A stretch of DNA of 64,000 bases from Candidatus Amulumruptor caecigallinarius (GTDB taxonomy: Bacteria; Bacteroidota; Bacteroidia; Bacteroidales; Muribaculaceae): positions 1 to 64,000 of the forward strand of contig JAMPDP010000002.1 in assembly GCA_023665605.1 (NCBI GenBank), read 5' to 3'. This document shows, in pieces, positions 59,260-63,311 of the stretch (the first letter of the stretch is position 1; each line of letters starts with the position of its first letter). The notes beneath the pieces were generated by a model. The model had not been told where the DNA came from. It searched no databases and saw only the letters and a program-made list of their open reading frames with translations. The position numbers and the translations under genes were made by a program.

Positions 59260-60573
59260 TCAGAAAGAGAATGAAGCGAGAGCTTCCACGCGCCGCGCCG
59301 CACGGTGACTGCCGTCAAAGTTATGACGCTGACCCCACGTGAACTGCCCGGCAACCTTGATGCGCGGCGTTACTGACCAATAGACATTGGCAGCGGCATA
59401 GAGCCCGTATTTGTAGGTGGACGGCTCGACAGGATGACCGGGAAGCAGCCGCGTCTGACTCGCCTGAACGCTGGCAAATACCGACTTGCTGAAATCATAC
59501 TGCGCACCCACATTCCATCCCCATGACTTCGGGGAATAGAGTGTGCCGGGCGCAGCAGCAGGGTCGGCCAACAGATCCATTTCACCCGCCCCGAGGTCCT
59601 GTGTCATTCCGGCCATACCAAGACCGTAATTTGCCTGCCCGTAGAGCGTAACGGAGCGCCCTAATGACCCGACTGCCGACAATTGAGTGCCCCAACCGGT
59701 TATGTGGTGATTGCGTCCGGCTACAAGGTCTCGGTAGCCCATGGTACGGATGATGCCTGACAGGCGTACGTGGCTCCCCTTCTCCCAGCTATATTGTGCA
59801 AACGCGGCGAAGTCTGGCACACTTGCGTCAAGTGCTTCGGCATCGGCTGTACTCTGTATCGTGACATCGGCAGGATATTCTGCTGATACGGCCACGGTGT
59901 ACTTGTCGGCGAAAGTGGGCATATATCTCACCAGCACCCTTGTCAAGTCAAACTGCGACGTAGCACCCTGCGCATCCACGTCAGGCGCGAGTGTCGACGG
60001 GTCGGAAAATGTTGACGATGCGTAGCCCACCGTGAAGTCACGCATAGTGGCATAAGCCTTTTTCAGCTTGAAGTCCCGGTTTTTGTAACCCGAAAAACCG
60101 GCCTCTATGTAAAGGGAGTAAAGCCCGACTTTGTTGTTGCGGCCTATCACGCGGAAAAACAACGCAGTGCCACCTATATCCGTGCCCAGGTGGGTTCTCG
60201 CCGCCGGATTCTCGGGAATGGGTATCAAGTAAGGCACCAGTCCCTTGTCCGGCACGGCTCCACCCCACTCATACCATCCGGTCAACTTTACTTTGCCTCC
60301 TATGCCCATCGAGAGCTTTGCATCCCGGCTCATAAACATGAAGTAAGGCGCATCTGGATCCTCAAAATGCCTGAACTGGTCATAGTAGAAGGTTGACATC
60401 ACTCTCCTCACCGAGTCATTTTCGGCCGCTGACAGTGGCAGTCCGTCGATGAACACAATCTTAGAGTCGGTGAGCTTATCGGCAATGCGCTCGTCCTTCA
60501 TGTTTTGAGCAGCAGAGCTGATACTGATTGAAGCGATACACAGGCATAAAGCAGAGGTGATAAATGGACGCAT
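59260..60573 (-). CDS. DcaP-like outer-membrane porin
   Basis: 437 residues with a signal peptide (MRPFITSALCLCIASISISSAAQ), a short helical/coiled start (ERIADKLTDSKIVF), then a barrel with FMSRDAKLSMGIGGKVKLTGWYEWGG and a C-terminal aromatic strand ending in Phe (LASFSF). This plan fits the DcaP-like trimeric porins seen in Bacteroidetes; general solute uptake is the likely role. A 153-bp MITE sits 17 nt upstream of its ATG, so its promoter region has been altered. Confidence 0.7.
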   Translation of the reverse strand: MRPFITSALCLCIASISISSAAQNMKDERIADKLTDSKIVFIDGLPLSAAENDSVRRVMSTFYYDQFRHFEDPDAPYFMFMSRDAKLSMGIGGKVKLTGWYEWGGAVPDKGLVPYLIPIPENPAARTHLGTDIGGTALFFRVIGRNNKVGLYSLYIEAGFSGYKNRDFKLKKAYATMRDFTVGYASSTFSDPSTLAPDVDAQGATSQFDLTRVLVRYMPTFADKYTVAVSAEYPADVTIQSTADAEALDASVPDFAAFAQYSWEKGSHVRLSGIIRTMGYRDLVAGRNHHITGWGTQLSAVGSLGRSVTLYGQANYGLGMAGMTQDLGAGEMDLLADPAAAPGTLYSPKSWGWNVGAQYDFSKSVFASVQASQTRLLPGHPVEPSTYKYGLYAAANVYWSVTPRIKVAGQFTWGQRHNFDGSHRAARRVEALASFSF

Positions 60574-60582
60574 ATCAGCGGT

Positions 60583-60751
60583 GATTTTTGGTAACTATTC
60601 AGCGAATACAACAGACTGATTTGTAGGGACGCACGGCTCGTGCGTCCGCCGGCCGAGGGGCTTTGTAATATCGAAGGCACGAGCCGCGCGTCCCTACTTT
60701 TGATTATCAGCTGATAATAAACCTGAATTGGCTGAATAGTTACGATTTTTG
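60583..60751. mobile_element. MITE with 8-bp target duplication and IS66-like ends
   Basis: A 153-bp element at 60591-60743. The ends are a perfect 13-bp inverted repeat (GTAACTATTCAGC / GCTGAATAGTTAC). Directly outside, GATTTTTG occurs on both sides in the same orientation (60583-60590 and 60744-60751), as a target-site duplication. Inside, 60623-60643 and 60677-60697 are inverted copies identical at 20 of 21 positions, and 60627-60647 alone folds into a perfect 9-bp hairpin with loop GCT. It has no coding capacity. GTAA ends and 8-bp duplications are features of IS66-family elements, which may have supplied the transposase in trans. Confidence 0.8.
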
Positions 60752-60811: not shown

Positions 60812-60860
60812 TGCGCCCCGGTGATGCGGGGATGTTCTCACCACGCATCGCCGGGGCGCA
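60812..60860 (-). terminator. Long GC-rich hairpin after the GH31 gene
   Basis: A 17-bp stem with a single G-T pair (60812-60828 with 60844-60860, cores TGCGCCCCGG and CCGGGGCGCA) and a 15-nt loop, 43 nt past the GH31 stop. No T-run follows on the minus strand. Confidence 0.7.
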
Positions 60861-60902: not shown

Positions 60903-63311
60903 TTACTTCAACTGCATATTGATAGAGAGCGGAGCCGTGCCGTCCCAATCGATGGTAAAGGTCGCCTTCTGTGCCTTCTTATCATAGTCTGCCTTGACTG
61001 CTACGGGAGCGGTACCACATTCGGCTGTCATCTTCTTGATGCCTTTCTGAATACCGTTCACCACAAAGTGCAGCTTCTTTGCCTCCACATTTTCAGGTGA
61101 ATCAGGAGATTTGCGAACGGTGATGTTGAGCGTGTTACCTTCGAGTCGGTCACTCATCTCTATCAGCGAATACTTCTTGTCCTTGATAGATGCGGGTGAT
61201 GTGCGGTCATCCTCAAAGAGTGTGAATTGACCTCCCTGCCCTTCCACGGCAAACACGTTGAGTGTGTATTCGTTGTCACGGTAACCGAGGGTGTTCTCCA
61301 TCGCGTAATCTGCTGTGGGTATGATGGCCCCGGCACGTACAAACAGCGGGAGCTTCTCCAGCGGAGCCGGATATGCCGTAACGGTCGTTCCACCATCATA
61401 TACCTTGGCGGGAGCATACCAGTCCACCCACTTACCTTGCGGGAAGGTGACTGACCGCTCTGTCGTACCCTGCGTGAGTACGGGTGCCACAAGAACATCC
61501 TTACCCCACAGATACTCGTCTGTTATATTATCATAGGCGTTGCTCCCCGCCTCATAGAAGTTCAGGGGGCGTACCAGCGGTGTTCCCTCGGTTGCGTTCT
61601 CGTAAGCGAGCGTGTAGTTATAGGGAAGCCAACGGTAACGCTCCTTGATCAGCGGAAGGATGATGCCTTGATGCTCGGGATAACGGTAAGGCTCGGCTGT
61701 GGCCTGCGCATGTGTGCGAAGTATCGGTGAGAATGTTCCTAACTGGAGCCAGCGAACGTACAGTTCCGGGTCATACGGGTGCTCAGGGTCAATGGCAAAT
61801 CCGCCTACGTCATGGCTCATATATCCAAGGCCACTGAGGCCGGAGTTGAGCATGATGATGACCTGCGGCTGAAGGCCGCCCCATGAACGGGACACGTCAG
61901 TTGACCAGGGATAGACGCTGTAACGCTGCAGGCCGGTGGTTCCACCACGCATCATTGTCATCAGTCGGGTATCGGGGAAGTCGGTCTTATACAGGTCATA
62001 GATAATCTCGCTCCAGTCGTTGCCATATTGGTTGTGATATTCGCGGGCTGTGAGACCGTTGGCGTGTAGCCCTCTCTCGGGGTGCACCTCCGGTTCGCCG
62101 AGGTCTCCCCACCAGCCCCCTACTCCGTCAAGGGTAAGCTCCTTATAACGCTGCGCGAGCCACTTGCGAGTGTCGGGGTTGCTGACATCCCACATACCTC
62201 CTTCGCCTACCCAGATTTTCACCTCCTGAGTGCCGCCGAGTGTGTCGCTGCCATTCTTGACGAACAAGCCAAGCGAGTCGCCCATGTTGTAGTTGTCTAT
62301 ACCGCGTCCGTTACGGAGCACATAAGGCTGCGAGATGGTAATCAGATTGACGCCCTTTGCCTTGAGGTCTGCAAGCATCTGCTTGTGGTTGGGCCACTGG
62401 ATAGAGTCCCAGGCCAGGCGTCCCATGTCTGTCTCCTGCCCGTACCAGTAGAGGTCAAGCACAATGCCGTCAAGCGGATAATGGTTCATCTTGAGTGTAT
62501 CAACCACGCCGCGGGTCTCCTCCTCGGTCTTGTAGCCATACTTGGAGGTGATGTAGCCCAGTGACCAGAATGGAGCGAGAGCCTGACGGCCGGTGAGTCG
62601 TGACAGCTCCTTGGTGACTCCCTTCAGTGAGCCACCGCCGTTCACGTAGTAGAAGCTCACGGGTGCTTTGCTCTCTGTGACATACTTGATGGGGTTGCCC
62701 ATTATCATCTCTGCTGCCGCGTAATCGTCAAACACAACGGCATAACCGTTGGATGACAGGAACAGCGGCATGGTGATGTTCATCTGGCGGATGCGGGGAT
62801 CTCCGGCTGTGTACCCATAGTTCTGCCGGTTGTACATCGGTAGAGAGTCACCGGCAAGATTGAGCTTGTGCCCGCGCTCCCCGGCACCGTAGAATGAGCC
62901 TGTCCCCTCGGTGCGGAGTTCAAGCACCCGCTTGCCGTCTGCCATGGTGCGCACGCCGCTGTCTGTCACCGTGCGTCCCGGGCCTGAGGTCACGCTCACT
63001 GCACCGGTGATGGTGTCGAGCTTGGCAACGACACCTGTTGGGGTGGCGATAACCTTCAGCGCCCCCTCGGTGTACTCGCGACCCTTAAAGGGTTGCTTGG
63101 GAAGCACGGTAGCGCGTGACTCTCGCAGGGTCTCGCCCGGTGCCATATTAGTCACTTTGATGACATCATCGCTGAGAGCCGTGACGGTGACTGTGGCCCC
63201 GCTGTGCAGCGTTGCCACTGCCTCGCCCTGAGCTGACGCACTTATGCTTAGCCACATGGCTGTGGCCATCAGCGCGCCCCCGGCCATCAGCCGTGTGTGG
63301 TGGTGGTTCAT
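60903..63311 (-). CDS. Exported GH31 glycoside hydrolase
   Basis: 802 residues with a signal peptide (through ASAQ, residue 28), so periplasmic or surface-located. Domains: N-terminal beta-sandwich (about 30-235), catalytic barrel (about 245-575) and C-terminal beta domains. The nucleophile is D403 in WWGDLGEPE and the acid/base D472 in PWSTDVSRSW; the substrate-side motif is VLDLYWYGQ. Family members are alpha-glucosidases, alpha-xylosidases and related enzymes; the GDLGEPE form is close to oligosaccharide 4-alpha-glucosyltransferase or alpha-glucosidase subgroups, but substrate cannot be fixed. It stands alone, with no SusCD pair beside it. Confidence 0.9.
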   Translation of the reverse strand: MNHHHTRLMAGGALMATAMWLSISASAQGEAVATLHSGATVTVTALSDDVIKVTNMAPGETLRESRATVLPKQPFKGREYTEGALKVIATPTGVVAKLDTITGAVSVTSGPGRTVTDSGVRTMADGKRVLELRTEGTGSFYGAGERGHKLNLAGDSLPMYNRQNYGYTAGDPRIRQMNITMPLFLSSNGYAVVFDDYAAAEMIMGNPIKYVTESKAPVSFYYVNGGGSLKGVTKELSRLTGRQALAPFWSLGYITSKYGYKTEEETRGVVDTLKMNHYPLDGIVLDLYWYGQETDMGRLAWDSIQWPNHKQMLADLKAKGVNLITISQPYVLRNGRGIDNYNMGDSLGLFVKNGSDTLGGTQEVKIWVGEGGMWDVSNPDTRKWLAQRYKELTLDGVGGWWGDLGEPEVHPERGLHANGLTAREYHNQYGNDWSEIIYDLYKTDFPDTRLMTMMRGGTTGLQRYSVYPWSTDVSRSWGGLQPQVIIMLNSGLSGLGYMSHDVGGFAIDPEHPYDPELYVRWLQLGTFSPILRTHAQATAEPYRYPEHQGIILPLIKERYRWLPYNYTLAYENATEGTPLVRPLNFYEAGSNAYDNITDEYLWGKDVLVAPVLTQGTTERSVTFPQGKWVDWYAPAKVYDGGTTVTAYPAPLEKLPLFVRAGAIIPTADYAMENTLGYRDNEYTLNVFAVEGQGGQFTLFEDDRTSPASIKDKKYSLIEMSDRLEGNTLNITVRKSPDSPENVEAKKLHFVVNGIQKGIKKMTAECGTAPVAVKADYDKKAQKATFTIDWDGTAPLSINMQLK

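Follow-up and report, generated by a model that had tools for sequence, protein, structure and literature searches.

The window, the 64 kb of DNA analysed here, carries a 153-bp non-coding element at 60591-60743, directly upstream of a porin gene and in the short gap that separates it from a glycosidase gene. An earlier note on this DNA had read the element as a MITE with perfect ends and an 8-bp target duplication, and this anatomy, including its position and length, is confirmed. The features of the locus are as follows.

59260-60573, minus strand: DcaP-like outer-membrane porin (17-sequence profile against 6EUS, E=6.4e-18)
60583-60590: target-site duplication, left copy, GATTTTTG (exact in the sequence)
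60591-60603, plus strand: left IS66-type end, GTAACTATTCAGC, the same as the ends of intact IS66 elements L085-L087
60623-60648, plus strand: first arm of a REP doublet, GTAG-GGACGCACGgctCGTGCGTCC-G, a palindrome also present without IS66 ends in G001, L047 and L048
60672-60697, minus strand: second arm of the REP doublet, inverted, ending CCCTAC (inverted-repeat analysis)
60700-60721: short AT-rich palindrome within the element, TTGATTATCAGCTGATAATAAA (inverted-repeat analysis)
60731-60743, minus strand: right IS66-type end, GTAACTATTCAGC on the minus strand (read from the sequence)
60744-60751: target-site duplication, right copy, GATTTTTG (exact in the sequence)
60812-60860: inverted repeat rich in G+C, just past the end of the GH31 gene (inverted-repeat analysis)
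60903-63311, minus strand: GH31 glycosidase gene, the upstream neighbour of the porin

The inverted ends pair at 13/13 bp, and at 18/20 when extended to 20 bp (the left end then reaching 60610). When the window was scanned for inverted ends (at least 12/13 matching, span 60-400 bp) immediately flanked by an exact 8-bp direct repeat, this site alone was returned, and 20 mononucleotide shuffles gave zero such structures. The element has what is expected of a MITE: terminal inverted repeats, a flanking target duplication, a size below 500 bp and no ORF of 100 aa or more. The 21-nt inverted repeat described previously exists but is better drawn as two 26-nt arms that are 88% complementary, each starting GTAG/CTAC. 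The first arm is by itself a palindrome with a perfect 9-bp stem, GGACGCACG-gct-CGTGCGTCC, and the second is weakened by two substitutions relative to another copy in the host genome (copy 2, below).

The element and the porin leader

Single-sequence Pfam scores of the downstream protein fall below cut-off, and it is the 17-sequence profile, matching the DcaP-like porin structure 6EUS, that bears out its reading as a porin. Only 17 nt separate its ATG from the edge of the element. The inverted repeat at 60812-60860 is a candidate 3'-end structure of the GH31 gene; it was not called as a terminator because it has no T-run. Given the end of the GH31 gene and this repeat upstream, the porin promoter should fall in the ~60 bp before the MITE. 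The element would then lie between the start codon and the presumed promoter, and is probably part of the 5' leader. Neither sigma-70 nor Bacteroidetes -7/-33 scans recognised a promoter upstream of the element or in it, which counts against this part of the explanation.

If transcribed, the element would by computation add a 153-nt hairpin to the leader, for which the predicted fold is -87.9 kcal/mol (z=-9.25). Rfam returned only chance-level matches to microRNA families, far below cut-off. An effect of the element on porin expression is plausible, and we suspect that such a hairpin changes mRNA stability or translation. A neutral insertion, with the promoter within the MITE itself or in the stretch from its edge to the ATG, or with a hairpin that has no effect, is a serious contender, if a somewhat less probable one than an insertion that matters. 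It agrees with the failure to find a promoter outside the element, and is harder to reconcile with the short distance to the ATG and with so exceptionally structured a would-be leader.

IS66 elements with the same ends

Three genomes of the same family, but from other genera, each yielded a complete element exactly 1626 bp long with one open frame of 499 codons (L085, L086 and L087). Both ends of each match the 13 bp of the MITE (13/13), and they are flanked by exact 8-bp duplications, TTTCTTTT, TTTATCGT and GGAATTTC, respectively. The L087 protein scores above the NCBIfam IS66 equivalog cut-off (231.5 versus 180 bits) and also passes Pfam DDE_Tnp_IS66. Given that the same 13-bp ends occur on transposase-bearing elements with 8-bp duplications, the earlier note guessed correctly in calling the GTAA termini IS66-like, and the autonomous element that it proposed to look for exists. 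The MITE thus combines GTAA tips, an 8-bp duplication and ends identical to those of elements encoding an IS66 transposase, as expected if IS66 mobilised it. Annotated plasmid IS66 elements of Segatella, Geobacillus (GTAACTATTCAGCC), Aeromonas (ISAs21), Solidesulfovibrio and E. coli likewise have GTAA-type ends and exact 8-bp duplications; at five other plasmid loci that were inspected, no pair of ends with a duplication could be made out.

No intact IS66 transposase is present in the host assembly (2.45 Mb on 19 contigs). A MITE does not require one, but its absence counts against our explanation. The only transposase trace is a C-terminal remnant (PF03050 positions 230-283), which terminates ~110 bp beyond the PF03050 tail in GTGTCCGCTGAATAGTTAC, the end of the MITE. 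When the right end of this remnant was searched in 397 genomes of the family, it was found in 21, in many cases at the edge of a contig, as multi-copy elements would be. Elsewhere in the host, a lone IS66 right end (L014, 4295-4307) is preceded by sequence that resembles the end of the remnant at 28/32 bases and holds no readable transposase; it is a second, older remnant. In another genome, two IS66 ends almost abut, GTAACTATTCAGCGGACACTTTGAATAGTTAC (L061, 1501; G049:C18).

Two further copies were found in the host genome, so that the element, as expected of a MITE, occurs more than once and at different sites, although in low number. Copy 2 is near-full (C18:20456-20609), identical at 150/154 aligned positions (97%), with three substitutions and one indel relative to the window copy. 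A copy with its own 8-bp duplication had been anticipated, and in this it falls short: its flanks do differ from those in the window, but its duplication is imperfect (read along the element, the left flank finishes with CCAAAAAT and the right one starts with CACAAAAAT), which also counts against our explanation. Copy 3 (L014, 12959) is truncated, keeping the left end and first palindrome (67 bp at 97%) and diverging beyond.

No further full MITE was found in the survey of 397 family genomes, the exact end pattern was confined to the host genome in a survey of 395 Bacteroidota genomes, and the MITE DNA matched neither plasmids nor phages. Viral contigs contained no match to the end pattern, the REP doublet or the IS66 end. 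A search of available genomes for porin orthologues yielded no empty site: the best orthologues, at ~50% identity, are too divergent, and all that the single sister species offers is a paralogue at 33%. The intact duplication in the window is the sole pointer to a recent insertion.

Judging by the anatomy of the element and the parent elements with the same ends, the insertion before the porin was probably the work of an IS66 transposase that acted in trans on the 13-bp ends and duplicated the 8-bp target. The source of the transposase would since have been lost from the assembled genome except for the remnant, and the element has therefore probably lost its mobility in this genome.

Origin of the interior

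Within the ends, 32 bp inside the element, lie two GTAG-tagged palindromes in inverted orientation, which constitute a REP doublet. Beyond the 13 bp, the interior has nothing recognisable in common with the 1626-bp elements. This bears on whether the MITE is simply an IS66 element with an internal deletion (a type I MITE), its interior inherited from the parent and its palindrome arising later, or a type II MITE, in which only the ends are common to the parent. An internally deleted element would share its ends with the parent, as this one does, and the host genome does contain a 41-bp pair of IS66-type ends with 15 bp between them. However, the bases next to the 13 bp are GAATACAAC or CAATTCAGG in the MITE versus GGACACG or GGACGCG in the three intact parents, no IS66 lineage with subterminal sequence like the MITE interior was found among the relatives searched, and free REP doublets that match the core are present in three other genomes. 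We consider a type I origin very unlikely. The 41-bp pair itself (GTAACTATGCAGC ... GCTGAATAGTTAC; L017, 4250-4290; G000:C11:1270249-1270289) has no clean duplication and is possibly an extreme deletion product.

In the sister species (G001), the palindrome of the MITE is present at ~25 loci, and no IS66 end was found within up to 1.5 kb in the 26 palindrome stretches checked. Two other genera have doublets that combine these arms with another spacer, again without IS66 ends (L047 and L048; the genomes with such doublets are G001, G345 and G266). In the host genome, strong palindrome matches are confined to the three MITE copies. The earlier note had suggested that MITEs of this kind could explain how such palindromes spread, but their occurrence without IS66 ends at the sister-species loci and in two other genera indicates that the MITE carries a host repeat and did not spread it. 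In the simplest reading, a host REP doublet came to lie between IS66 ends, and the doublets themselves would have spread by another route. The sister species also has other intergenic palindrome families (L020-L046), for example GTAGGGTCGCCACAGGTGGCGACCCTAC and GTAGGGATGCACC..GGTGCATCC; no IS66 ends were seen near the stretches read.

The usual suspect for the spread of REP doublets is RAYT, a single-strand, REP-associated transposase. The whole element could therefore be a REPIN, a palindrome doublet moved by RAYT, with the GTAA ends and the 8-bp repeat incidental. Its GTAG-tagged inverted doublet is arranged as in REPINs, and genes for Y1_Tnp proteins are present in both genomes of the genus. 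Yet at the four Y1_Tnp loci found, the palindrome of the MITE is absent from the flanks: three have no GTAG palindrome nearby and the fourth has a different one. The copies are bounded by IS66 ends rather than by GTAG, and 8-bp duplications are not known from RAYT insertion. The REPIN reading is further contradicted by elements in other taxa that are bounded at GTAACTATTCAGC, have unrelated interiors and are flanked by exact duplications (below), and we regard it as extremely improbable.

We conclude that the element is very probably a non-autonomous IS66-family transposon, a type II MITE in which a host REP doublet is boxed between IS66 ends, inserted in trans before the porin, now probably immobile, and with a hairpin that, if transcribed as part of the leader, probably affects the mRNA.

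IS66-ended MITEs in other phyla

GTDB genomes were scanned for two exact ends 102-132 bp apart. At least 118 stretches matched, and they hold a minimum of 124 elements that are 128-155 bp long and have precisely these ends; arithmetically, ~0.002 matches would be expected by chance. The matches listed come from Gamma- and 'Delta'-proteobacteria, Lachnospiraceae, Clostridia, a Spirochaete, Nitrospirota, an anammox planctomycete and Bacteroidota, and IS66-ended elements are thus found in at least seven bacterial phyla. Where both flanks were available among the matches listed, the 8-bp duplication is exact in 72 of 122 elements and one base off in 19 more. The window element belongs to a little-noticed kind of mini-transposon.

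Together with those of the two host copies, the interiors of the matches listed fall into 28 groups with no detectable mutual similarity at the threshold used. What they share in general is the formation of a hairpin: the interior fold has z < -3 in 21 of the 28 groups and z < -2 in 26, versus 7 and 18, respectively, of 103 control stretches of flanking DNA from the same loci. Capture of a REP was considered as a general rule and ruled out, as GTAG/GTGG-tagged doublets occur in only three of the 28 interiors (the window element, L204 from a gammaproteobacterium and L206 from Methylococcaceae) and YGTC-tagged doublets in two. In the Methylococcaceae genome there are many matches to the doublet core only, and the one doublet core read in the gammaproteobacterial genome (L284) lacks an IS66 end. 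The interior of a Nitrosomonas MITE was also tried as a free repeat and rejected: all five matches cover nearly the whole interior, and both IS66 ends were found for four of the five. A 46-member group (L118-L235) consists of 152-bp IS66-ended MITEs from many gammaproteobacterial MAGs; inside these lies a second end, degenerate in sequence (GTAACTGTTCAGA), which gives the impression of one MITE end nested within another.

Among six related IS66-ended elements of Faecalicatena faecalis (L273, L262, L257, L269, L278 and L283), nine pairs of the long stem have changed on both sides with pairing kept, a small sample in which gene conversion between the arms could yield the same pattern. These compensatory changes could point to selection on the hairpin itself, either for bringing the two ends together in transposition or for making insertions tolerable to the host. 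That IS66 ends define one bacterial MITE class present in many phyla, whose identical 13-bp ends have repeatedly come to enclose unrelated and selected hairpin inserts, some of them captured host REP doublets, is an idea that we put forward tentatively, at somewhat less than even confidence.

The window element joins in a single molecule IS66 elements, MITEs and REP palindromes, which are usually studied apart. It also offers a simple signature for mobile elements in many phyla: GTAACTATTCAGC, then ~100-130 bp, then its inverse. The recurrent hairpin interior raises the question of whether it is cargo needed for movement or what the host tolerates. We found no description of IS66-ended MITEs as a group, or of a class with GTAACTATTCAG, in the open-access literature, and an earlier one elsewhere is possible; IS66 goes unmentioned in a 2024 review of MITEs in prokaryotes.

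Among known systems, the closest in ends are the IS66 elements with a single transposase gene (as in the ISBst12 group), which have the same 13-bp ends, GTAA tip and 8-bp duplications. These intact relatives carry one transposase ORF, whereas the MITE is non-coding and has the ends alone in common with them. QMITE2 of Coxiella burnetii resembles the element in size (150-190 bp), in its 7-11 bp duplications, in having a GTAG REP inside and in its strong hairpin; however, IS66 is not mentioned for it, the REP there is described as a target of IS1111, and organism and sequence are different (PMC5896051). GTAG-tagged REPs and REPINs have an inverted pair of GTAG-tagged palindromes like the MITE interior, but are thought to move with RAYTs, whereas the doublet of the MITE lies within IS66 ends (PMC3733652, PMC3116915); Bacteroidetes are not among the GTAG-repeat listings of PMC3733652. 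MITEPsy1, MITEAba12 and Chunjie are likewise reported as IS-derived elements of small size that have inverted ends and duplications and are moved, or thought to be moved, in trans (PMC3189936, PMC6382973, PMC10969869), MITEPsy1 being linked to ISPsy2 and not to IS66 (PMC3189936). Stable hairpins are known for bacterial MITEs in general (PMC10969869). A hairpin alone is thus typical of MITEs, and what is distinctive here is that the same IS66 ends recur around unrelated hairpins.
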